A stretch of 64,000 nt of DNA from Anaerolineales bacterium (GTDB taxonomy: Bacteria; Chloroflexota; Anaerolineae; Anaerolineales; UBA11579). Positions 43,061 through 53,782 of the stretch are shown here, piece after piece. The notes beneath the pieces are model-generated. The model was not told where the DNA came from. It worked only from the letters and a program-made list of their open reading frames with translations, and did no database searches. Position numbers and translations under genes: made by a program. The DNA lies in NCBI GenBank assembly GCA_026129305.1, contig JAHCII010000003.1:1-64000 (forward strand). The letters run 5' to 3'. The first letter of the stretch is position 1. Each line of letters starts with the position of its first letter.

Positions 43061-43558
43061 TTAATCCTGCCCGATGAGGGCTTGAACGCTGAAGTGCCCC
43101 AGCGAGACGATGTCCTTGTCGTGCAGAACGTGGCTTTGGTGCGGCAGGACCTTCTCCTCATTCACCAGGGTGCCGTTGGAAGAGCCCAAGTCGGTAATCA
43201 GGATCGCCTCGCGCGAGACGTTTATGCGGGCGTGTAGGCGCGAGACGCCTGCCTCGTAAGCGCTAAACGGCTCCAGATCGATGTCCGGCAGGACGGACTG
43301 CCCGCTGCTGACCCGGCCGATCACATACTCGCCCTCGCCGCCGACCGGGATGATCTCGCCGGTGCGCACGATGTGCAAGGCCAGGCGGGCAATGCGGCTG
43401 GCAGGCGGGCTGGTTTTGGAGCGCCGCGGGCGCAGCACCTCACCGCCGATGGCCATGGTAGGCACGCCGCTGTTCTCTTGCAGGGCGGCGCCGCACTGGC
43501 TGCAAAACAAGCTGCCGGTCTGCACTTTGGCCGCGCAATTCGAACAAGTGATCGTCAC
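43061..43558 (-). CDS. FHA-domain protein with N-terminal zinc ribbon
   Basis: 165 residues from GTG 43558 (GTGA overlap with the DnaJ-VWA gene). Residues 4-24 are a zinc ribbon (CSNC and CSQCG). The FHA domain is at about 65-160: YVIGRV, SRLHARI and LGSSNGTLVNEE with the phospho-Thr-binding Ser/His/Asn positions kept. FHA domains bind phosphothreonine peptides, so it probably reads phosphorylation by the operon's kinase. Confidence 0.92.
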   Translation of the reverse strand: MTITCSNCAAKVQTGSLFCSQCGAALQENSGVPTMAIGGEVLRPRRSKTSPPASRIARLALHIVRTGEIIPVGGEGEYVIGRVSSGQSVLPDIDLEPFSAYEAGVSRLHARINVSREAILITDLGSSNGTLVNEEKVLPHQSHVLHDKDIVSLGHFSVQALIGQD

Positions 43559-45054
43559 GTGGTTTCCTTTTCAGACATCGGCCCGCTGGCCGCGAAGTCG
43601 GCCACCAGGGCGCGCGTGCCGTATTTTATCTGTTTTCCGGTTTTGTCACCCAGGCTGCCGCCCTGCTTAATCTCGTCGGCGGCATTCAAGACCTGGCGGG
43701 CCAGGCCACGCTCGCCGCCAGAGAGCAGCCGGGTGGCCAGTATGCGCAGGCGCTTGGCGGCCGCCTGGGGGTCGCCGTTCTGCAGGTCGGCGCGGGCGCG
43801 CTCCTGCATGCGGTATAGCGAAAGCTTTCCAATCGCGCCGACCAGGGCGCGCGGCGGGGCTTCAGGCGCCGCGACACTTTTCACCGGGCGGGTCAGTTCG
43901 AAGCGGGTTTTGGTGGCGGGAATCACGCGGCTGGGCACATCCAGGCGCAAGTCACCCTCAGCCAGGGTGACATGGCCTTCCCGAAAAGTGCGGGCGTCCA
44001 CGCTGAACTCGAGCAGCACACTGAGGCTGCCATCCAGCGGGATGTCGCCAAGGAAAAGCGGCGAATCGCCCTGGAGCATGCCGCCCTCCGGCGCCAGGCG
44101 AAAGGCATAGTCCAGCCGGCAGCCAAGGCCGGCCTGGTAATGCAGCTTGACATTGCTGGCGTAGACCTGGTTGAGGCCGGTCAGGCGGCGCTGCACCAGT
44201 TGGGTGATCTGCGTGCTTTTGTCGGCATACAGGCTGGCGCCGCCGGCTGTGGCGGCCAGTTGGTCCACAAAGGCTTCGTTCCACTCCTCACCAATGCCGA
44301 TGACAGAGATGGGCACGCCCAGCTGGGCCGCCTGGGCCGCCAGCTGCAGGCAGCCGGCTTCGTCGCCGTAAGTGCGGCCGTCGGTAACCAGCAGCAGGTG
44401 ATTGACGGCATTGGGGCGCATGTTGCGGCGCACTTCCACCAGGCCGGCGCGCAGGCCCTGCAAGATCTCGGTGCCGCCGCGGGCCTGCAGGGCGCCTAGG
44501 CGAGCGCGCAGCAACTGGGGGTTGACCACGGGCTGGGCGGGCAAGACCAGCTCGGCATAGTCATTGAAAGCCACCACCGAAAGCGTGTCTTGCGGCTCCA
44601 GTTCTTCAATGAACTGCATGGCGGACTTGAGCACCTGGTTGAGTCGCGAGCCGGCCATGGAGGTGGAGGTGTCCAACACCAGCGAGACGTTCAGCGGCGG
44701 GCGGCGGCCGCGCAGCAGCTCGGCGGCCATCAGGTCGAGCATCACGTAGACCACTTGCTGGCCCTCGCCAGGGGTCACCTGGCTGCGGCTGTAGAGTGCA
44801 TTGACCATCAGGTCGGCCGGCGGGTTGATGTCCGGCGGCAGGGTCAGGTCGTACTCGGCCCGGCGAGACTGGTCGCCCAGCACTGAATAGGCTTCCTGCA
44901 CCAGCAAGAAGATCTCCTGCGCTCCGGCGCTGGGGTTGGCGTCTGGGTGGTACTTGCGCGCCGCGGCGCGATAGGCGCGCTGCACGTCTTGCAATGAAGC
45001 CGTTTGGGAGATCCCCAGGCGAGCATAGAAGTTGTCTAAATAGCTGGTGGTCAT
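43555..45054 (-). CDS. DnaJ (J) domain fused to von Willebrand factor A domain
   Basis: 499 residues. Residues 5-70 are a J domain with the HPD motif (YHPDANP) and the DRRAEYD-like end, which would stimulate an Hsp70. Residues of about 115-290 are a VWA domain with a complete MIDAS start DTSTSMAGS and later GGTEI and VTDGRT. A beta-rich region follows, with a helical tail of about 130 residues. VWA proteins next to kinase and PP2C genes recall TerY in TerY-P triads. J plus VWA in one chain is unusual. Confidence 0.85.
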   Translation of the reverse strand: MTTSYLDNFYARLGISQTASLQDVQRAYRAAARKYHPDANPSAGAQEIFLLVQEAYSVLGDQSRRAEYDLTLPPDINPPADLMVNALYSRSQVTPGEGQQVVYVMLDLMAAELLRGRRPPLNVSLVLDTSTSMAGSRLNQVLKSAMQFIEELEPQDTLSVVAFNDYAELVLPAQPVVNPQLLRARLGALQARGGTEILQGLRAGLVEVRRNMRPNAVNHLLLVTDGRTYGDEAGCLQLAAQAAQLGVPISVIGIGEEWNEAFVDQLAATAGGASLYADKSTQITQLVQRRLTGLNQVYASNVKLHYQAGLGCRLDYAFRLAPEGGMLQGDSPLFLGDIPLDGSLSVLLEFSVDARTFREGHVTLAEGDLRLDVPSRVIPATKTRFELTRPVKSVAAPEAPPRALVGAIGKLSLYRMQERARADLQNGDPQAAAKRLRILATRLLSGGERGLARQVLNAADEIKQGGSLGDKTGKQIKYGTRALVADFAASGPMSEKETT

Positions 45055-45059
45055 AACCC

Positions 45060-45947
45060 CTAGGCGGTGGCGCGCACCAAGATCACAGAAATATTGTCCG
45101 GTCCCCCGGCATGATTGGCAGCCTGCACCAACTTCTGGCAGGCCAGGTGCGGGTTGTCTGTCGAGTTGACGATGCGCTGGATCTCATCCTCGGAAACCAC
45201 GCCCCACAGGCCGTCCGAGCACAGCAGCAGGCTGCCCGGGTTGGGCAGGCTGCTGATGAAGATCTCCGGCCGGGCCGCCCCGCCCTGCCCCAGCGCCCGG
45301 TACAGGACTGACTTCTGCGGGTGGCTGGCGGCCTCTTCGGCACTGAGCTGGCCCATCTCCTGCAGGCGCTGCACCAGCGTATGGTCGCGGGTCAGCTGCT
45401 GCATGCGACCGTCACGGTGCACGGCATAGGCCCGGCTGTCGCCCAGGTGGGCCACAACCATTTGGTTGCCCACCACCAGGGCGGCGGTCAGCGTGCAGCC
45501 GCCGCCGGGGGCAGTTTTGGTCACGGCGCGGTGCGCTTCGCCGACGGCAGCTTCCATCAGCTCGCGCAGCGATTCCTCTGCGGCCTGCGGGTTGGGGCCA
45601 AACAGCAGCTTGTAGAGCTTACCCAGCAAGGCGCTGCCCCAGGCGCGCACGGCTGCTTCGCTGGCCAGCTCGCCATTGCGGTGGCCGCCCATGCCGTCGG
45701 CGATGGCGTAGAGGCCCAGCGGCTGGGCGGCCTGTTCGGCGCCCAGGGCGACGTTGATGCACAGCAGGGCATCTTCGTTGTTGTCCCGGCGGCGTCCAGT
45801 GTCCAAGCTGCTGCCCGAGATGAAATGATAAAAGCCCGAGCCGCGGCTTGGCGGAGCCAGCGCGTCGGCCTCGCCCAGCGGCAGCGTGGCGGCGCGGCTG
45901 GGGGGAGTCGGTTTGCGTCTAAAGATCCTGTCCAATAAGCGTTTCAC
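45060..45947 (-). CDS. PP2C-type Ser/Thr protein phosphatase
   Basis: 295 residues. The PPM motifs are all present: RRDNNEDALL, ADGMGGHRNGE, HLGDSRAYAV, LCSDGLWGVV and GGPDNISVIL, with the metal-binding aspartates. The N-terminal 40 residues are basic and Pro-rich. It should reverse the phosphorylation made by the kinase 9 nt upstream. GTG 45947 has AGGA before it. Cytoplasmic. Confidence 0.94.
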   Translation of the reverse strand: MKRLLDRIFRRKPTPPSRAATLPLGEADALAPPSRGSGFYHFISGSSLDTGRRRDNNEDALLCINVALGAEQAAQPLGLYAIADGMGGHRNGELASEAAVRAWGSALLGKLYKLLFGPNPQAAEESLRELMEAAVGEAHRAVTKTAPGGGCTLTAALVVGNQMVVAHLGDSRAYAVHRDGRMQQLTRDHTLVQRLQEMGQLSAEEAASHPQKSVLYRALGQGGAARPEIFISSLPNPGSLLLCSDGLWGVVSEDEIQRIVNSTDNPHLACQKLVQAANHAGGPDNISVILVRATA

Positions 45948-45956
45948 GATCTGTCC

Positions 45957-47846
45957 TTACGCGGAAAAGGCGTAAATATGCTTGTCGGTGGAGCCAATGA
46001 AGACCATGTCTTCATGCACGGTGGGCGTGGCGGTGATGGGCCCACCGGTCTGGAAGCGCCAGCGCAGCTGCCCAGTGGCGGCCTCCAGGCAATAGAAGCT
46101 GCCATCCACCGAGCCGCAGTACAGCGCGCCGCGGTGCAGCACCGGCGAGCCGGTGACCTGGTGCTCAGTGGTGAAGCGCCACAGCTCCTTGGCCGAGCGC
46201 ACGTCAATGCAGTAGATGTTCTGGTCCGCCGCGCCGGTATAAAGCAAGTGTCCGGCCAGGGCCGGGCTGGAGATGCTGCCTTTGCCCAGGCGGAAACGCC
46301 AGACCACCCAGCCCGAGCCGGCGTCCAGCGCGTAGAGCGTATTGTCCATCGATCCGAAATAGACCACTCCGTCGGCGGCCACCGGCGAAGAAGTGACCCC
46401 GCGCTTGGCCTTGAAACGCCAGCGGGCCTCGCCGCGGAAGTCCACGCAGGTGAAGTCACCCGCCTCAGAGCCAAAATAGACGTACTCGCTGCTGACGAAG
46501 GGTGTGGAGCGCACCGGCGAACCGGCCTCGGCCTTCCAAGCCAGGCGGCCGCTGGCGGTGTTGACCGCGTGTAAAAAGCCGTCGTCCGAGCCGATGAAGG
46601 CGTGGCCCTCGGCGATGCGCGGCGAGGAACGCACCGGCCCATCAGTGTAATGTGTCCAGACCACACGGCCGCTGCGGGCCGACACCACATGCAGGCGCTT
46701 ATCCTCAGAACCGAAATAGACATTGCCCTCGAACACGGCGGGCTTGCTGGCAATGCCGCCGTCGCTGGCGTATTTCCAGCTGAACTCGCCATTGGCCGCG
46801 TCCAGGGCATACAGGTTGTTGTCGTAGCAGCCTTGGTAGAGGACGCCGTCATGGAAGGTCGGCGAACTGCGCAGCTCATCCTCGCAGGCGAAAGCCCACA
46901 AGGGCTTGACGCCCATCGCCTGGGCGCGGGGGGCGGTCACGGCGGGGATGTTCAAGTTCAGCAGCGTGCCGGTCTTCTGGGCGACATTGAGCAGCGCTTC
47001 CTTCATCTCGGCGGCATTGGCGTAGCGGTCCTCTGGCTTGTACTCCAGGGCGCGCTCCACCACCGCGGCGAACTCGCGGCTCACCGCCGGGTTGACCTCG
47101 GTGATGGGCCGCTCGGAAAAGGAGAACGGCGCCTCCAACTGCGGGTCACGCAGGGTCAACAGGTGGTGCAGCGTAGCGCCCAAGGCGTAGATATCCACCT
47201 GCGGAGTGGCCTCGCCGCGGTACTGGTCGGGCGGGGAATAGCCCTGGGTGCCCACCATGGTGTTCTTTTGATTGCCTTCGAAAACTTTGGCGATGCCGAA
47301 ATCCACCAGAGCGATGTGGTTCTGCAGGGTGCACATGATGTTGGAGGGCTTGATGTCGCGGAAGATCACCGGCTCAGGCTTGTGGGCGTGCAAATACTCG
47401 AGCACGTCACACAGTTCCACCGCCCAGCCCAAGATCTGCTGTTCCGGGAAGAACCCTTTGGCGTCTGAGAGCAGCTGTTCCAAGTTCTTGCCATGGATGA
47501 ATTCCAAGACCAGGTAGGCGCGCTCGTCCACCGAGAAATAGTCGTAAATACGCGGAATGGTGGGGTGGCGCAGGGTGGCCAGAATATTGGCTTCGCGCTC
47601 AAAGATCTGGAAAATGTTCTTGCGCACCACCGAATCGGTCACCTGGCTGATCATTTCCTTGATGGCCACCAGGCGAATGGCTTTGAAGTTCTTGTCCCGG
47701 GCGCGGTAAACAGAACCCATGCCGCCCATGCCGACGATCTCTTGGATCTCGTAGCGATCAGCCAGCACGTGGCCCGGCTGCAGCTGGTTGTAGCGGACTT
47801 GGTCCTCTTGGAAGTCCAGCTTACGGGTGGATGGGTCTTCGCTCAG
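45957..47846 (-). CDS. Ser/Thr protein kinase with C-terminal eight-repeat PQQ-like beta-propeller
   Basis: 629 residues if the CTG at 47846 is the start; the first ATG/GTG-type start is GTG 47768, which would cut off the conserved lead-in LQPGHVLADRYEI. AGGAG stands 6 nt before the CTG. Kinase domain about 35-300: VGMGGMGSVY, VAIKEM, VIFRDIKPSNIM (FRD for HRD), DFGIA and SPPDQYRGE. Residues of about 320-629 hold eight PQQ-type repeats ('W...G.V.SSP...G.VYFGS.D..LYALDA'), enough for an eight-bladed propeller. No TM is present, so the propeller is cytoplasmic and may bind a ligand or partner. It heads the operon. Confidence 0.9.
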   Translation of the reverse strand: MSEDPSTRKLDFQEDQVRYNQLQPGHVLADRYEIQEIVGMGGMGSVYRARDKNFKAIRLVAIKEMISQVTDSVVRKNIFQIFEREANILATLRHPTIPRIYDYFSVDERAYLVLEFIHGKNLEQLLSDAKGFFPEQQILGWAVELCDVLEYLHAHKPEPVIFRDIKPSNIMCTLQNHIALVDFGIAKVFEGNQKNTMVGTQGYSPPDQYRGEATPQVDIYALGATLHHLLTLRDPQLEAPFSFSERPITEVNPAVSREFAAVVERALEYKPEDRYANAAEMKEALLNVAQKTGTLLNLNIPAVTAPRAQAMGVKPLWAFACEDELRSSPTFHDGVLYQGCYDNNLYALDAANGEFSWKYASDGGIASKPAVFEGNVYFGSEDKRLHVVSARSGRVVWTHYTDGPVRSSPRIAEGHAFIGSDDGFLHAVNTASGRLAWKAEAGSPVRSTPFVSSEYVYFGSEAGDFTCVDFRGEARWRFKAKRGVTSSPVAADGVVYFGSMDNTLYALDAGSGWVVWRFRLGKGSISSPALAGHLLYTGAADQNIYCIDVRSAKELWRFTTEHQVTGSPVLHRGALYCGSVDGSFYCLEAATGQLRWRFQTGGPITATPTVHEDMVFIGSTDKHIYAFSA

Positions 47847-47929: not shown

Positions 47930-49909
47930 TCAGCGGCTGTCCTCGGCGATGCGCACATATTCGCGGGCTTCGGTCTCGGCGGTGGAGATCCCCAGAGCTT
48001 TGACCAATTCCAGGACCAGAACGGACTTGTGCTCGGCGTCCTTGCGGCTCCAGGTGCGGCTCTTGACCTCCAGGTAAGTGCCCAGGTCAGGGCGGTCTAC
48101 GAAGTCGAGGTTGACGTAAAATTCGGTGTCTCGGAAGCGCACCAACCAGCGGCGGCGTTCCTTGACTACCTGGATCTCTCTGGCCGGCTTGAAGTACTCG
48201 CGGTAGAAGCGCAGGCTTTGATCCGCCGGGGCAATAAACCGGCTGCGGGAGAGCATCACATCGCTGGGGAATTCACGTTCGTGCGGCTCACCCATCAGGG
48301 TTAGGCGATAGCGCACATGGTCCACCTTGCCAAGCTCATCCAGGAATTCATCTTCCCGATAGCGCAGCACGCTGTCTTCGCCTTCGAACTTGAAGTAGGT
48401 GTCGAACTCGCGATAGTGGCGCGAATAGACCTTCTCGATCTCGGCGTTCTCCAGGGCTTTCAAGACCGCCTCGGCATCGTCCACCTTGACCTTGACCTGC
48501 ACCTCGAAGCTCTGCTCTTGACGGGCGCCGCCAATGGCGACCAGCTTGGAGTGCACCGAAGATTCGCGCCTGATCAGGAACTGGTCGATCTGCTTGGCCA
48601 GGTCTGCGGCCTGTTCCACCAGCTCGGTCTCGTTGAGGGTCAACAGTTGGTGGGCGCGCATCAGCCACTTGCCGTTGACCATCACATCGCTGACGTCGGT
48701 GGACTTGCTGGCATACACGATCTGGGCATAGACCCCGTTGGGGTCACGCGTGAAGTGCGGCGAATTGTGCAGTTTATGAATGTCCACCAGGATCAGGTCG
48801 GCGCGCTTGCCCGGCTCCAGCGAGCCGGTCAAGTGGCCGATGTGCATGGCCTGGGCGCCCAGACGAGTGGCCATCAGCAGCGCAGTCTGGGCGGGGAGCG
48901 ATGTGGGGTCATTGGTGCGGAACTTGGAGAGGAAGGCGGCCAGGCGCACTTCCTCGAACATGTCCAGGTCATTGTTGGAGGCGGGTCCATCCGTGCCAAT
49001 GCCGACATTCAGGCCAACCTTAAGCATCTCCGCCACCGGGGCGGCCCCGGAGGCCAGCTTGAGGTTGGACGAGGGGTTGTGCGAGACGCCAGCCCGGTGG
49101 TGCAACAGCGTGTTGATCTCGCCGCTGTCGATGTGCACACAGTGGGCCGCCAGCACCTTGGCGTCAAAGAGATTCTGCTTCTTGACGTACGGCACCACCG
49201 GCATACCCCAGTCACGGCGGGCGTTTTCCACTTCGAAGGCCGTCTCGGCGATGTGGGTATGCAGCGGCACGTCGTATTCCACGGCCAGGGCGGCGCAGGC
49301 CTGCAAGATCTCGGCGGTACAAGTATAGGGGGCATGCGGAGAGACAGCCGGCACCACCAGTGGGTGCCCCAGCCATTCTTCAATGAACTCACGGGTGTGC
49401 GCCAGCGAGTCTTCGTATGACTTGGCGTCTGGCGCAGGGAACTGCATCACGGTCTGGCCGAGCACGCCGCGCAGACCGGCCGCGGCGGTGGCTTCCGCCA
49501 CAGCGGATTCGAAATAATACATATCGGCAAAGCTGGTGACGCCGGAGCGGATGAATTCCGCCGCGCCGATCGAAGTGCCCAGCCGCACAAATTCCGGATT
49601 CACGAACTGGCGCTCCACCGGCATCATGTAGCCCAGCAGCCAGACATCCAGGCGGGTATCGTCTGCCAGGCCGCGCAGCAGGGTCATGGGCACATGCGTG
49701 TGGGCATTGACCAGCCCGGGCATCAGCACCTTGCCGCCGCAATCCACGATTTCGGCAGCCTGGTATTGGGCGGCCAGCTGCGCCTGCGGCCCGACGGCGA
49801 TAATGCTGTCACCTTTGACCGCCACGGCGCCTTCGGCATATTGGCTCAGCCCGGCGTCCATGGTGAGCACCAGGGCATTGGTGAATAAGTAATCGATTTT
49901 TTGGCTCAC
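47930..49909 (-). CDS. MTA/SAH-deaminase-like amidohydrolase fused to a CYTH domain
   Basis: 659 residues from GTG 49909, with GGGAGAG before it. Residues 1-445 are an amidohydrolase of the MtaD/SsnA (Atz/Trz) type: metal ligands HTH (70-72), H in LHTHIAET, H in AAHCVH and D in GIGTDGPASNNDLDM. Such enzymes deaminate methylthioadenosine, S-adenosylhomocysteine or related compounds. From about 468 a CYTH-like domain follows: EVQVKVKV (ExExK with the second Glu changed to Gln), FDTYFKF, LRYRED, VRYRLTL, YVNLDFVDRPDLGTYLEVKSR. CYTH enzymes act on triphosphates (class IV cyclase, thiamine triphosphatase, inorganic triphosphatase). Last gene of its operon. Confidence 0.82.
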   Translation of the reverse strand: MSQKIDYLFTNALVLTMDAGLSQYAEGAVAVKGDSIIAVGPQAQLAAQYQAAEIVDCGGKVLMPGLVNAHTHVPMTLLRGLADDTRLDVWLLGYMMPVERQFVNPEFVRLGTSIGAAEFIRSGVTSFADMYYFESAVAEATAAAGLRGVLGQTVMQFPAPDAKSYEDSLAHTREFIEEWLGHPLVVPAVSPHAPYTCTAEILQACAALAVEYDVPLHTHIAETAFEVENARRDWGMPVVPYVKKQNLFDAKVLAAHCVHIDSGEINTLLHHRAGVSHNPSSNLKLASGAAPVAEMLKVGLNVGIGTDGPASNNDLDMFEEVRLAAFLSKFRTNDPTSLPAQTALLMATRLGAQAMHIGHLTGSLEPGKRADLILVDIHKLHNSPHFTRDPNGVYAQIVYASKSTDVSDVMVNGKWLMRAHQLLTLNETELVEQAADLAKQIDQFLIRRESSVHSKLVAIGGARQEQSFEVQVKVKVDDAEAVLKALENAEIEKVYSRHYREFDTYFKFEGEDSVLRYREDEFLDELGKVDHVRYRLTLMGEPHEREFPSDVMLSRSRFIAPADQSLRFYREYFKPAREIQVVKERRRWLVRFRDTEFYVNLDFVDRPDLGTYLEVKSRTWSRKDAEHKSVLVLELVKALGISTAETEAREYVRIAEDSR

Positions 49910-49939: not shown

Positions 49940-51124
49940 CTAGGATTCATCTGGATCATCCAGCGTATCATGCTCTTTGATCAGCTTGGTGCGCAGCAAG
50001 CTAAGCGCCAGGTTGGCGGCCCACAGCTGCGCTTGGCGCGGGTGACCGCCATAAGAGAACTCGTAATCACGGTTGGGGCCCAGACCGCGCAGGGCGATCT
50101 GCAAATCGGCTTGCCCATCAGCCTGTCTGAGTTCCACACCCAACACGACCTCGGCGCGCACTTCTTTGGCGTATTGGTCGGTCAGCTCAGGCAGCGGCTT
50201 GCTTTTTATTTCTGTGCCCTGAATCTCGCCGCCGACAAAGGCATTGCCCTGGCCGGTCAGGCTGCGGATGACCACGCCGTCCAGGCCCTTCTCGATCACG
50301 GCCAGGCGCTTGTCCGTCGCGGCCAGCAAACCCAAGGCGGCGCGCGCCAGGCTCTCATCATCTGCGCCATAGACCCAGTGACCCAGGCGCCGGCGCGTTT
50401 CACTTTCCAGCTCGGCTAGCATGACTTCAGCTTCGGCGGCGGTCTGCGCTTTGGCGGTCAGACGCACATCCACAGAACCGGCGTGCGCCGCCAGGCCGAC
50501 GGTAGGGTTGGTCTGGCGCTCCAGGTCGTCCAGCTTCTCGTCGATCTGCGACTCAGGCACGCCCGCGGTGTGCAGCACGCGCGTGCGGATCACGGCGCCT
50601 TTGCCGTAGCGCTGCTCGAAATATGGCAGCACGCCGTGCTCCATGATGTAGTGCATTTCGCCCGGCACGCCGGGCATGGAAATAATGACTTGCTCGCCGC
50701 GCTCGATGAGGAAGCCCGGCGCGGTGCCCACTGCGTTCTCCAGGGCCTGCGCCCCGGCCGGCAGGTACGCCTGGCGTTTGTTGTTCTCGCTGGGTTTGCG
50801 TTTGAAGCGCGCAAAGCGCTCTTCCAACTTGAGCAAAAGCTCCTCCCGGAACTCCAACTCGACGCCCAGGGCCTGGGCAATGCCTTCGCGGGTCACGTCA
50901 TCGACGGTCGGCCCCAGGCCGCCGGTGCACAGCAGCACTTGTGAGCGGCCCAGCGCCAGCTGCACCGCCGCGGCAATGCGGGCCTGGTTGTCGCCCACAG
51001 TGCCGGTCCAATACAAATCGACCCCGGCGTCGCGCAGGAGGCGCGCCAGGGCCTGGGTGTTGGTGTCGACGATCTCGCCGAGCAGCAGCTCGGTGCCGAT
51101 GGTGAGGATTTCCGCGCTGGGCAT
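49940..51124 (-). CDS. cinA: CinA family protein with degenerate C-terminal domain
   Basis: 394 residues. The N-terminal MoCF-like domain is good: ILTIGTELLLGEIVDTN, CTGGLGPTVDDVT and MPGVPGEM. This part is the ADP-ribose pyrophosphatase-type half of CinA. In the C-terminal half the nicotinamide-mononucleotide amidase signature AESCTGG is replaced by IEKGLDG, and the usual GGVVAY element by GNAFVGGEI. The catalytic serine is therefore missing and deamidase activity is doubtful. The ATG overlaps the stop of the FAD gene. Confidence 0.88.
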   Translation of the reverse strand: MPSAEILTIGTELLLGEIVDTNTQALARLLRDAGVDLYWTGTVGDNQARIAAAVQLALGRSQVLLCTGGLGPTVDDVTREGIAQALGVELEFREELLLKLEERFARFKRKPSENNKRQAYLPAGAQALENAVGTAPGFLIERGEQVIISMPGVPGEMHYIMEHGVLPYFEQRYGKGAVIRTRVLHTAGVPESQIDEKLDDLERQTNPTVGLAAHAGSVDVRLTAKAQTAAEAEVMLAELESETRRRLGHWVYGADDESLARAALGLLAATDKRLAVIEKGLDGVVIRSLTGQGNAFVGGEIQGTEIKSKPLPELTDQYAKEVRAEVVLGVELRQADGQADLQIALRGLGPNRDYEFSYGGHPRQAQLWAANLALSLLRTKLIKEHDTLDDPDES

Positions 51125-52278
51125 CAGATCACATTGTATTCCACGATGGGCCGCTTCTCGGCGAAGCGGGCCAAGTCAAGCATGGAGACGTCGACTGTGC
51201 TGGCGGCCCCGTCCAGGATGATCTCGCTGATCAGCTTGCCGGAGACCGGGCCGTGCATGAAGCCGTGGCCGGAGAAGCCGGCCACGACGAAAAAGCCGTC
51301 CACCGACGTGGCGCCGAAGATGGGGTGCGCGTCAGGGGTGACTTCGTAGAGGCCGGCCCAATGCGAAACGATGCCGGCGCGCTCCAGCAGGGGCAAGCGC
51401 TGGATGGCGTGTTCCATGTGGACCAATTCCCAGTCCGGGTCGACGTTCTGGTCCAACCCAGGCGCCTGGCCGGGGTTGGACATGCCGGTCAGCAGTCCGT
51501 CGCCCTCGCGGTGAAAGTACAGTGATTTGGCGAAGTCAATCACGAAGGGAAAGTCGGCGGGCAGCTGCGGCAGGGCCGTGGTGGTCAGCATCTGGCGGCG
51601 CACGGGCGTGATCGGGATCTCGATGCCGGCCAGGCGGCCCAGTTGGCCCGCCCAGGGGCCGGCGGCATTGACCACCAGCGGGGTCTCAATGTCGCCCTGG
51701 TTGGTGTGCACGCCGAGGATTACGCCGTCTTGCACATCCAGCCCAGTGACCTCCACCTGGGTAAGGCACTGGGCGCCCAGGCGCGCGGCGGCATTGATGT
51801 AGCCCATCACCACGCCGTTGGGGTCACACAAGCCATCTTGGGCGTTAAAGGTCGCAGCCTGCACGTCATCCAGACGCATGTCGGGCAGGCGGCGGCGGAT
51901 CTCGTCGCCGTCCAGCCATTCGGTCTGCACGCCCAACTTGTGCTGCAGTTCCACGTTGTGGCGGAAGGTCTGGATGTCCTTGTCGTTGTCGAGCAGGAAG
52001 AGATAGCCGCACTGGCGGTAGTCCACCTCCTGCCCCAGTTCTTCGGCAAAGCGCTCCAGCATGGGCAGGCTGGCCTGCGAGAGCCGAATGTTAATCTCCG
52101 TGGCGAACTGATAACGCACCCCGCCGGCGCAGCGGCCGGTGGCGCCCTGACCGAAGAATTCTTCCTTTTCCAGCAGCAGCACATCTTTGATGCCGCGCTC
52201 GGCCAGGTGATAGGCCGTAGAGGCGCCCATTACGCCGCCGCCAATGACGACAACCGAAGCAGATTTTGGCAGATTCAC
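51124..52278 (-). CDS. FAD-dependent oxidoreductase of the DAO/sarcosine oxidase family
   Basis: 384 residues. The dinucleotide motif is VVVIGGGVMGASTAYHLAE, followed by the Glu of LLLEKE and a GATGRCAGGVR loop like those of sarcosine/dimethylglycine oxidases. The end PDAHPIFGATSVDGFFVVAGFSGHG is typical of the DAO family (FAD-binding C-terminal loop). It oxidises a secondary or primary amine of an amino acid; substrate unknown. Next to a mu-crystallin/ornithine cyclodeaminase-type gene, which could act on the imine product. Confidence 0.88.
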   Translation of the reverse strand: MNLPKSASVVVIGGGVMGASTAYHLAERGIKDVLLLEKEEFFGQGATGRCAGGVRYQFATEINIRLSQASLPMLERFAEELGQEVDYRQCGYLFLLDNDKDIQTFRHNVELQHKLGVQTEWLDGDEIRRRLPDMRLDDVQAATFNAQDGLCDPNGVVMGYINAAARLGAQCLTQVEVTGLDVQDGVILGVHTNQGDIETPLVVNAAGPWAGQLGRLAGIEIPITPVRRQMLTTTALPQLPADFPFVIDFAKSLYFHREGDGLLTGMSNPGQAPGLDQNVDPDWELVHMEHAIQRLPLLERAGIVSHWAGLYEVTPDAHPIFGATSVDGFFVVAGFSGHGFMHGPVSGKLISEIILDGAASTVDVSMLDLARFAEKRPIVEYNVI

Positions 52279-52796
52279 GCGTTCTTCCTTTGAATAAGTT
52301 GAGTTCCAGCGACCAGGTCAGGCAAGCCGCGCTGGTCTGAACGAAACAGGATCAGTGCGATGGTCAACCCACCAAGCAAGACAACCAGGGCAAAGGCCGG
52401 GCGAAAGCCCGGCTGTGGGTCATACCAAAGCGGGATGGGGAAATTATTGGCGATGTGGGCCAATTCCCAAGGCAGCAGTAACACCAGGCTGCGGATGAAC
52501 GCCTGGTTGAGCGAAACCGGCAAATTGCTGCGCAGATTATGCAGGCGCAAACCAAGTGTGCGCATACCCCAGGTGGCCTGCGCAGCAGACGCCTGCGTCA
52601 GGCTGAAATAGAGCCAAACGGGCAGCGAAGCGGTCAGCCAAGTGTAGAGCTGCGTGTTCCAACCAGAGTAAAACCAGGGTTCACTGATGCCCAACTTGGT
52701 ACGCAAGGGCACAAAGAGAGCCATCTGCAAACCAGCGAACAGGGCAAAACCGACCAGGGCATCCAATGAGTAAGCAACCCAGCGGCGCACAAGCAT
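52275..52796 (-). CDS. RDD family membrane protein
   Basis: 173 residues. The family start RRWVAYSLDALVGFAL (R and D positions), about three or four TM helices, and the late QRGLPDLVAGTQLI stretch match RDD. Function in this operon unknown; some RDD proteins are linked to Na+/H+ exchange. Start ATG 52796 overlaps the upstream stop and the end overlaps the FAD gene. Confidence 0.8.
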   Translation of the reverse strand: MLVRRWVAYSLDALVGFALFAGLQMALFVPLRTKLGISEPWFYSGWNTQLYTWLTASLPVWLYFSLTQASAAQATWGMRTLGLRLHNLRSNLPVSLNQAFIRSLVLLLPWELAHIANNFPIPLWYDPQPGFRPAFALVVLLGGLTIALILFRSDQRGLPDLVAGTQLIQRKNA

Positions 52797-53776
52797 CACC
52801 AGGTCACCTCGGTGCCCAGGCCGAGCTTGCGGGCATTCTGCAGAGCCAGTTGGGCGGCCAGGGCGTCTTGCACGGCGACGCCCACGGATTTAAAGAAGGT
52901 GACCTGCTCGGCGTCCTGGCGGCCGGGGCGGGTACCTGCGATGATCTCGCCGATCTCAGCGATCTCGGCTTCCTGCAGCAGGCCGGCGGCCAGCGGGCGC
53001 TGCAGGTCGCCGCTTTCGACCAAGGCCGCGCTGCGGCTGTCCACCGCAGCCAGGCCGGCGGCCACCGTCTCGGCCGGGATCTCCTGCATGTCGGGCGTGT
53101 ACGAGCCGGCGCCGTTGACGTGAGTACCCGGCCGCAGGTCGGCGTGGGCGAAGACGGGGGTGGCGCTGGTGGTGGCGGCGCTGACGATGTCGGCAGCGGC
53201 CAGCGCCTCCGCCGGGCTGCCGGCAGCCCGCAGGTCGGCCGGCACATCGCCCTGCCCGGCCATCTCGGCAATAAACGCCTCGACCCCGGCCGGTGCATAG
53301 ACCCAGGCGGTTTCTATGGGGCGCACGGCACACACTGCGGCCAGCTGAGTGCGAGCCTGCACCCCGGCGCCAAAAATGGCGACCGTGCGGGCATCCGTCC
53401 GGGCCAGCACGTCGGTGGCTGCCCCGCAGCCCGCGCCGGTGCGAATGGCGGTCAGGCTGCCGCCTTCCAGCAGCGCTTCCACCGCGCCGGTCTGCGGGTG
53501 GAGCACCAGCACCGCGGCGTGGATGAAGGGCAGGCCGCGGCCCGGGTTGTGGTCAAACAGCGAGACGATCTTGACCGCCAAGGCCTGGCTGGCAGGGTCG
53601 TCCACAAAGGCCGGCATGAAGAGGCTGAGGCCTTGATTGGGCGCCACGGGCAGGCGCAGGCGCAGCGGCACTTCGGCCTTGCCGGCGGAGAGCGCCGCGT
53701 AGGCACTTTTCATCGCCTGGACGCACTCCTTCATCGGCAGGGCTTGGCGGACCTCATTGGCGTTCAGCAGCAGCAT
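52796..53776 (-). CDS. Ornithine cyclodeaminase / mu-crystallin family protein
   Basis: 326 residues. The family's LALKIVSLF-type strand (ALAVKIVSLFDHNP), LTAIRTGAGCGAATDVLAR and the Rossmann loop VAIFGAGVQARTQ are plain. Members act as imine (ketimine) reductases, ornithine cyclodeaminases or alanine dehydrogenases. ATG 53776 was preferred because TAGAAT ends 6 nt before it. First gene of a five-gene operon. Confidence 0.92.
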   Translation of the reverse strand: MLLLNANEVRQALPMKECVQAMKSAYAALSAGKAEVPLRLRLPVAPNQGLSLFMPAFVDDPASQALAVKIVSLFDHNPGRGLPFIHAAVLVLHPQTGAVEALLEGGSLTAIRTGAGCGAATDVLARTDARTVAIFGAGVQARTQLAAVCAVRPIETAWVYAPAGVEAFIAEMAGQGDVPADLRAAGSPAEALAAADIVSAATTSATPVFAHADLRPGTHVNGAGSYTPDMQEIPAETVAAGLAAVDSRSAALVESGDLQRPLAAGLLQEAEIAEIGEIIAGTRPGRQDAEQVTFFKSVGVAVQDALAAQLALQNARKLGLGTEVTW

Positions 53777-53782
53777 AGACAA

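Follow-up and report, generated by a model that had tools for sequence, protein, structure and literature searches.

The bacterial MTA/adenosine deaminases of known structure (4f0r and 4f0s of C. violaceum, 4gbd and 4dyk of P. aeruginosa PAO1, 4dzh of X. campestris and TM0936, 1p1m) have chains that stop at the equivalent of residue ~445 of the protein described here, and none of them has a CYTH domain. The CYTH, or triphosphate-tunnel, fold is represented by the archaeal enzyme SaTTM. There, E7 and E135 hold metal 1, whereas the two metals of the calcium form are bound together by E5, E7 and E137, metal 2 activating water (PMC8233210). The phosphates are held by R56, R58, K69, K110 and R112, the water at the β-phosphate is placed by D38-x-Y40, and the plug is shaped by F133 and Y168 (PMC8233210). 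Mutants of AtTTM3 in the glutamates equivalent to E7 and E137 have strongly reduced hydrolysis, and ygiF is impaired by such mutations (PMC4641920). Class IV adenylate cyclases are recognized by the signature HFxxxxExExK together with ExA (PMC8233210).

Two kinds of proteins in which a CYTH domain is joined to a partner are comparable to the protein of this study. CYTH-CHAD proteins, like ygiF of E. coli, share the fixed two-domain build, but their CYTH domain is N-terminal to the CHAD partner, has unaltered motifs and works as a triphosphatase. In plant TTM1 and TTM2 (kinase-CYTH, 7z67), a type encountered in plants and Amoebozoa and placed in CYTH cluster 7, a CYTH domain without ExExK and ExE is joined to a nucleotide-related catalytic domain, as in the present protein (PMC8233210), but this partner is of the phosphoribulokinase type instead of a deaminase. 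No paper on a CYTH domain combined with an amidohydrolase, nor on such a CYTH protein in Chloroflexota, was found in the open-access literature. Within open-access papers, this agrees with the preliminary description of the locus, in which no described protein of this form was known.

Domain Organization of the Fusion Protein

The gene is located in a window of 64,000 nucleotides, meaning the whole stretch of Anaerolineales DNA that was analysed. The fusion ORF is the complement of positions 47930..49909 (minus strand, stop codon included) and encodes, from a GTG start, a single polypeptide of 659 aa. This polypeptide is composed of an MTA/SAH/adenosine-deaminase-type amidohydrolase (residues 1 to ~426), a helical junction and a CYTH/triphosphate-tunnel domain (residues ~463 to 659). 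AlphaFold predicted the full-length protein with a pLDDT of 92.6 and a pTM of 0.84; the latter is probably higher than a random placement of the two domains would give, the deaminase making up about two-thirds of the chain. The presence of a deaminase-like amidohydrolase and a CYTH domain in one chain, proposed in the preliminary description, is backed by profile searches, the AlphaFold model and structural alignment.

An artefact of assembly or gene calling that merged two adjacent genes, for instance by a missed stop, is practically negligible as an explanation. No point supporting it was found, and it is contradicted by more than 150 sequences from elsewhere with the same uninterrupted ORF, among them those of isolates such as Longilinea arvoryzae, Ornatilinea apprima and Anaerolinea thermolimosa, as well as by the lack of any genuine standalone domain among our matches. 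The nearest records belong to uncultured Anaerolineales, at 74% identity.

Distribution and Age of the Fusion

The CYTH-domain part of the fusion was detected in 182 of the 298 Anaerolineae genomes and, in a phylum-wide sample, in 89 of 400 Chloroflexota genomes. At nearly all listed places of this C-terminal domain, the ORF measures ~650 aa or more. In two genomes (G646 and G423), the halves are on separate contigs, and the short frames of G287 (203 aa) and G225 (538 aa) both come from fragmented genomes. The 400 Chloroflexota genomes contained no convincing standalone copy of the tunnel domain, and the plasmid collection contained no relative of it. Judged by their titles, the best 80 matches of the contig scan for the domain are all from Chloroflexota. 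Amidohydrolases matching the deaminase part alone are at most ~40% identical to the query, so that a single fusion event, long ago, is the simplest reading of these sequences.

The Deaminase Domain

The amidohydrolase domain (residues 1-426; 48632..49909, minus strand) was recognized by Pfam as PF01979 (Amidohydro_1; residues 61-416, E 7.6e-73). Its best sequence relative in the PDB is the 5-methylthioadenosine/S-adenosylhomocysteine deaminase 4f0r (E 3.9e-94, residues 14-440). The preliminary description had noted that all amidohydrolase metal ligands are present; indeed, H70, H72, H219, H256 and D307 are found, and together with the catalytic E222 they are invariant in 157/157 homologues. 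The HxH metal motif is formed by residues 70-72 (49694..49702, minus strand; identical in 157/157), and W90, E99 and H192 are likewise conserved in all 157.

The known bacterial MTA/adenosine deaminases share a common fold with residues 1-447 (Z 52-59, 34-39% identity), as well as all metal ligands and the W/E/H residues on the substrate side. Superposition of the model gave Z scores of 59.2 to 4dzh and 58.2 to 4f0r. Of the superposed structures, 4f0r carries a bound 5'-methyl(thio) nucleoside, and 4gbd carries methylthio-coformycin. With all catalytic residues kept in 157/157 sequences and a model superposing at Z 58-59, the deaminase is expected to be active. Its candidate substrates are adenine nucleosides such as MTA, SAH, adenosine or 5'-deoxyadenosine. 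The NCBIfam models NF006549 (443 vs. a cut-off of 540 bits) and NF012037 (297 vs. 779 bits) were not reached. By these scores, the deaminase part is a divergent subfamily that falls below every NCBIfam equivalog cut-off listed, and its substrate is not assignable by those models.

Beyond the window, ~20 kb from the fusion gene, the same contig encodes another amidohydrolase of this superfamily as a standalone protein (G000:C23:70194-71543, locus L002); the two are 33% identical.

The Tunnel Fold and the Junction

The two domains are connected by a two-helix junction (residues 427-459; 48533..48631, minus strand), modelled as helices 427-449 and 452-459. F444, R448 and E449 are near-invariant in this segment, and K455 is invariant. 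The CYTH domain follows (residues 463-659; 47933..48523, minus strand). Based on a 73-row alignment, AlphaFold predicted it with a pLDDT of 93.3 as eight strands followed by C-terminal helices. The eight-strand tunnel with its plug helix is seen both in the model and in the structural matches: the top Foldseek matches are SaTTM, PH1819 and a class IV adenylate cyclase (E 1e-8), and VIA-align gave Z 18.3 to 2een (169 residues, 2.3 Å), 17.1 to SaTTM 7ns9 and 16.6 to 3n0z. The C-terminal part is thus predicted to fold as a CYTH tunnel matching SaTTM and PH1819. The plant TTM 7z67 is more distant, with a Z of 14.7, below that to SaTTM.

At the sequence level, the domain is harder to recognize. The occurrence of PF01979 and PF01928 in one chain, suggested as a check in the preliminary description, holds for the family and not for the window protein itself: in the latter, PF01979 is present, PF01928 is without a match at E 1, and Pfam finds nothing significant in the last 200 residues. 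However, PF01928 matches 36 of 73 relatives (best E 1.7e-9), and the genome scans revealed nine fusion loci above the Pfam cut-off. A profile search with the C-terminal alignment against PDB sequences returned nothing; the solved CYTH proteins were reached by structure comparison only. The alignment with six canonical Chloroflexota CYTH proteins by hhalign is modest (E 0.0008, probability 25%) and serves for the motif register only; in it, ExQxK pairs with ExExK, and ExK with ExE.

With the SaTTM/PH1819-type archaeal enzymes (7ns9, 2een) and the class IV adenylate cyclase 3n0z (Z 16-18), the fusion has in common the tunnel of eight strands, the plug helix and tyrosine, DxY, RxR and KxR. It differs from the SaTTM/PH1819 type by ExQxK in place of ExExK, ExK in place of ExE, arginines in place of the strand-5 acids and a strongly basic tunnel.

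Rewired Motifs of the Tunnel

Motif conservation was counted over 157 aligned sequences, 145 of them distinct, and over 73 sequences for strand 5. All motifs are on the minus strand. On strand 1, the ExExK motif is altered to E469-x-Q471-x-K473 (48491..48505; 157/157), as the preliminary description had read it, with glutamine in place of the metal-1 glutamate (E7 of SaTTM). A further change, absent from that description, affects the C-terminal ExE motif on strand 8: it has become E614-x-K616 (48062..48070; 157/157), with lysine in place of the metal-2 glutamate (E137 of SaTTM). Q471 and K616 co-occur in all 157 sequences. The remaining motifs include D503-x-Y505 (48395..48403; 157/157), the DxY that places the water at the β-phosphate (PMC8233210); the triphosphate-binding R516-x-R518 (48356..48364; 157/157); and K583-x-R585-x-R587 (48149..48163; 157/157), the triphosphate-binding KxR with an extra arginine. 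Strand 5 carries L-S-R555-x-R557 (48239..48253; R555 in 70/73, R557 in 71/73), where canonical relatives have the acidic RxExE ('REE'). E519-D520, D602, T619-W620 and D624-A625 are further invariant residues of the tunnel.

Equivalences to SaTTM were derived from hhalign and strand order: Q471 = E7, K616 = E137, E469 = E5, E614 = E135, R516/R518 = R56/R58, K583/R585 = K110/R112, D503/Y505 = D38/Y40 and F/Y612 = F133. Y651 most likely corresponds to Y168, and K69 of SaTTM is without a basic counterpart in the fusion. Read through these equivalences, each metal site has kept one protein ligand and lost one, that of metal 2 to lysine, and the triphosphate grip is retained. The net charge at the tunnel-facing positions, counted by strand alternation, is +6.2 (sd 0.7) in the fusion family vs. 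0 to -2 (~-1) in the six canonical Chloroflexota CYTH proteins.

The motifs that define CYTH classes were compared as well. The HF motif of class IV adenylate cyclases is absent, the window protein having R463-Q464 and the family M/Q/T followed by E/Q. The first position of the W/YxRxR motif of thiamine triphosphatase and plant TTM1-2 is V514 in the window protein; in the family, it is R in 100/157 and Y in 8/157. Both domains are members of known families, but their combination and the invariant Q and K rewiring fit none of the CYTH classes of PMC8233210. With both defining motifs rewired, the motif rules for CYTH function assign no known class.

Another, separate CYTH protein of the window genome is canonical, with both ExExK and ExE unaltered (G000:C24:4355-4819, locus L164), so that housekeeping tunnel chemistry is covered elsewhere. 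In L164, as in L163, L165 and L168, the canonical CYTH gene closely follows that of a biotinyl/lipoyl-type carrier (ESMKM motif), a pairing that is apparently recurrent.

Gene Neighbourhood and Salvage Context

The fusion gene sits between a CinA-like gene, directly upstream on the same strand (49940..51124, minus strand; PF00994 and PF18146), and a kinase, PP2C and J-VWA cluster. CinA occurs in the neighbour cluster of 59 of 111 related loci, most of which are close relatives. The CinA-like protein has the MoCF and KH parts; its residues after 253 are unmatched, and the usual C-terminal amidohydrolase domain is without a Pfam match. On the other side, a Ser/Thr kinase with a PQQ-type propeller (45957-47768) and a PP2C phosphatase (45060-45947) adjoin a 499-aa fusion of DnaJ (J) and von Willebrand A domains (43555-45054, minus strand; PF00226 7.8e-19, PF00092 4.8e-20). 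These genes are likely a signalling cluster. Upstream of CinA, a run on the minus strand (51124-53782) comprises a DAO-type FAD oxidoreductase, an RDD membrane protein and an ornithine cyclodeaminase/mu-crystallin, and ABC transporter ATPases like the branched-chain amino-acid ones are located further upstream. This neighbourhood suggests amino-acid catabolism and not nucleoside salvage.

A comparison of gene positions showed that the MTA phosphorylase gene and the fusion gene are tail-to-tail neighbours in five Anaerolineae families, with at least nine genomes concerned (G001, G040, G072, G049, G189, G016, G144, G018 and G054). The gaps measured in three loci are 81, 92 and 274 bp. The nine arrangements suggest common descent, so they do not count as independent events; their maintenance across families connects the fusion with MTA/adenosine salvage. 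The window genome has MTAP and the fusion gene on different contigs.

The neighbouring MTA phosphorylase carries TDYDVW, which we take to be the adenine-specific motif of MTAP; loci L123, L128 and L156 are examples of the tail-to-tail arrangement with such a gene. Since an adenine-type MTA phosphorylase has no need of prior deamination, MTA itself is not necessarily a substrate of the fusion. Its substrate may come from SAH hydrolase (adenosine), from radical-SAM enzymes (5'-deoxyadenosine) or from excess MTA. A route like that of Pseudomonas, from MTA to MTI with an MTI phosphorylase as neighbour, was set aside because of the TDYDVW motif. Salvage-gene content was also rejected as an explanation of the fusion: with or without the fusion, SAH hydrolase is present in 57/60 and MTAP in 58/60 Anaerolineae, and MTAN is sporadic.

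Possible Function of the Tunnel

The reading we favour, with some reserve, is that of a non-hydrolytic CYTH tunnel that binds a polyphosphate or nucleotide and regulates a working, metal-dependent adenine-nucleoside deaminase. The tunnel would then probably sense a phosphate-rich molecule without cutting it. K616 would be a built-in cation beside E469, supplying the charge that metal 2 brings to ordinary tunnels. An internal E469-K616 ion pair could form at the metal-2 position, and such a pair would account for the constant co-occurrence of Q471 and K616. With K616 and the added R555, R557, R587 and R618, a ligand bearing a polyphosphate (a nucleotide, a PRPP-like molecule or inorganic polyphosphate) would be held and not hydrolysed. 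Closure of the tunnel on its ligand would be relayed through the two-helix junction (427-459) to the deaminase, and the removal of adenine nucleosides would follow the phosphate or energy state of the cell. A more far-reaching form of the proposal, which we put forward tentatively, is that the invariant lysine and added arginines replace the catalytic metals. The result would be a metal-independent sensor of a nucleotide, PRPP-like molecule, alarmone or polyphosphate that gates deamination allosterically throughout the phylum. As E469 and E614, one ligand per metal, are kept, the tunnel may still take up one metal and have some activity left.

The preliminary description had left the choice between a two-step salvage enzyme and an allosteric sensor. 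The former is disfavoured, since Q471 and K616 replace metal ligands in every copy, and the putative sensor fits better. In our opinion, it is unlikely that the CYTH domain remains catalytic with a changed use of metals and works in series with the deaminase on some phosphorylated purine metabolite, for example as a nucleotide phosphatase or a pyrophosphatase. The invariance of E469, K473, RxR, KxR, DxY, D602 and E614 is more than simple binding might need, and plant TTM1/2 are reported to act on pyrophosphate despite the missing ExExK and ExE (PMC8233210). However, a ligand of each metal is gone in all copies of the fusion, one of them to lysine, mutants of the equivalent glutamates in AtTTM3 and ygiF lose much of their hydrolysis or are impaired in it (PMC4641920), and the strongly basic tunnel suits binding over metal-bound hydrolysis.

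That basic tunnel would also bind polyphosphate in a scaffold or targeting module, which, without regulating catalysis, would tether the enzyme to RNA, a protein partner or inorganic polyphosphate, or would promote oligomerisation. Non-catalytic CYTH-like structural parts do exist, Mediator Med18/20 being among our structural matches, and CHAD proteins, a frequent partner of CYTH, are reported to attach to polyphosphate granules (PMC10892726). We nonetheless regard this role as doubtful, as the geometry of the triphosphate grip, DxY included, is fully conserved and a defined small ligand fits it better. A class IV adenylate cyclase fused to the deaminase is highly improbable. TIGR00318 (cyaB) is the closest named NCBIfam model (57/73 members, best 2.1e-7), and AC-IV structures rank high in the fold comparisons, but the window protein scores only 24.3 bits vs. 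the curated cut-off of 57.95 and has R463-Q464 instead of HF. Moreover, it retains the first R of RxR, where AC-IVs have a small residue, and its last motif is ExK vs. their ExA (PMC8233210).

Significance

The fusion fixes a CYTH domain in an undescribed partnership, with a phylum-wide rewiring of two family-defining motifs. An automatic annotation that called these proteins plain amidohydrolases, or labelled their tails adenylate cyclases, would be incomplete or wrong. A metal-independent sensor gating the deaminase would be a first case of a CYTH fold serving a metabolic enzyme as its allosteric receptor. If the tunnel is a receptor, metal-free sensing would join hydrolysis, cyclisation and scaffolding among the roles of this fold, and the signals that adenine-nucleoside salvage follows in Chloroflexota could be approached directly.
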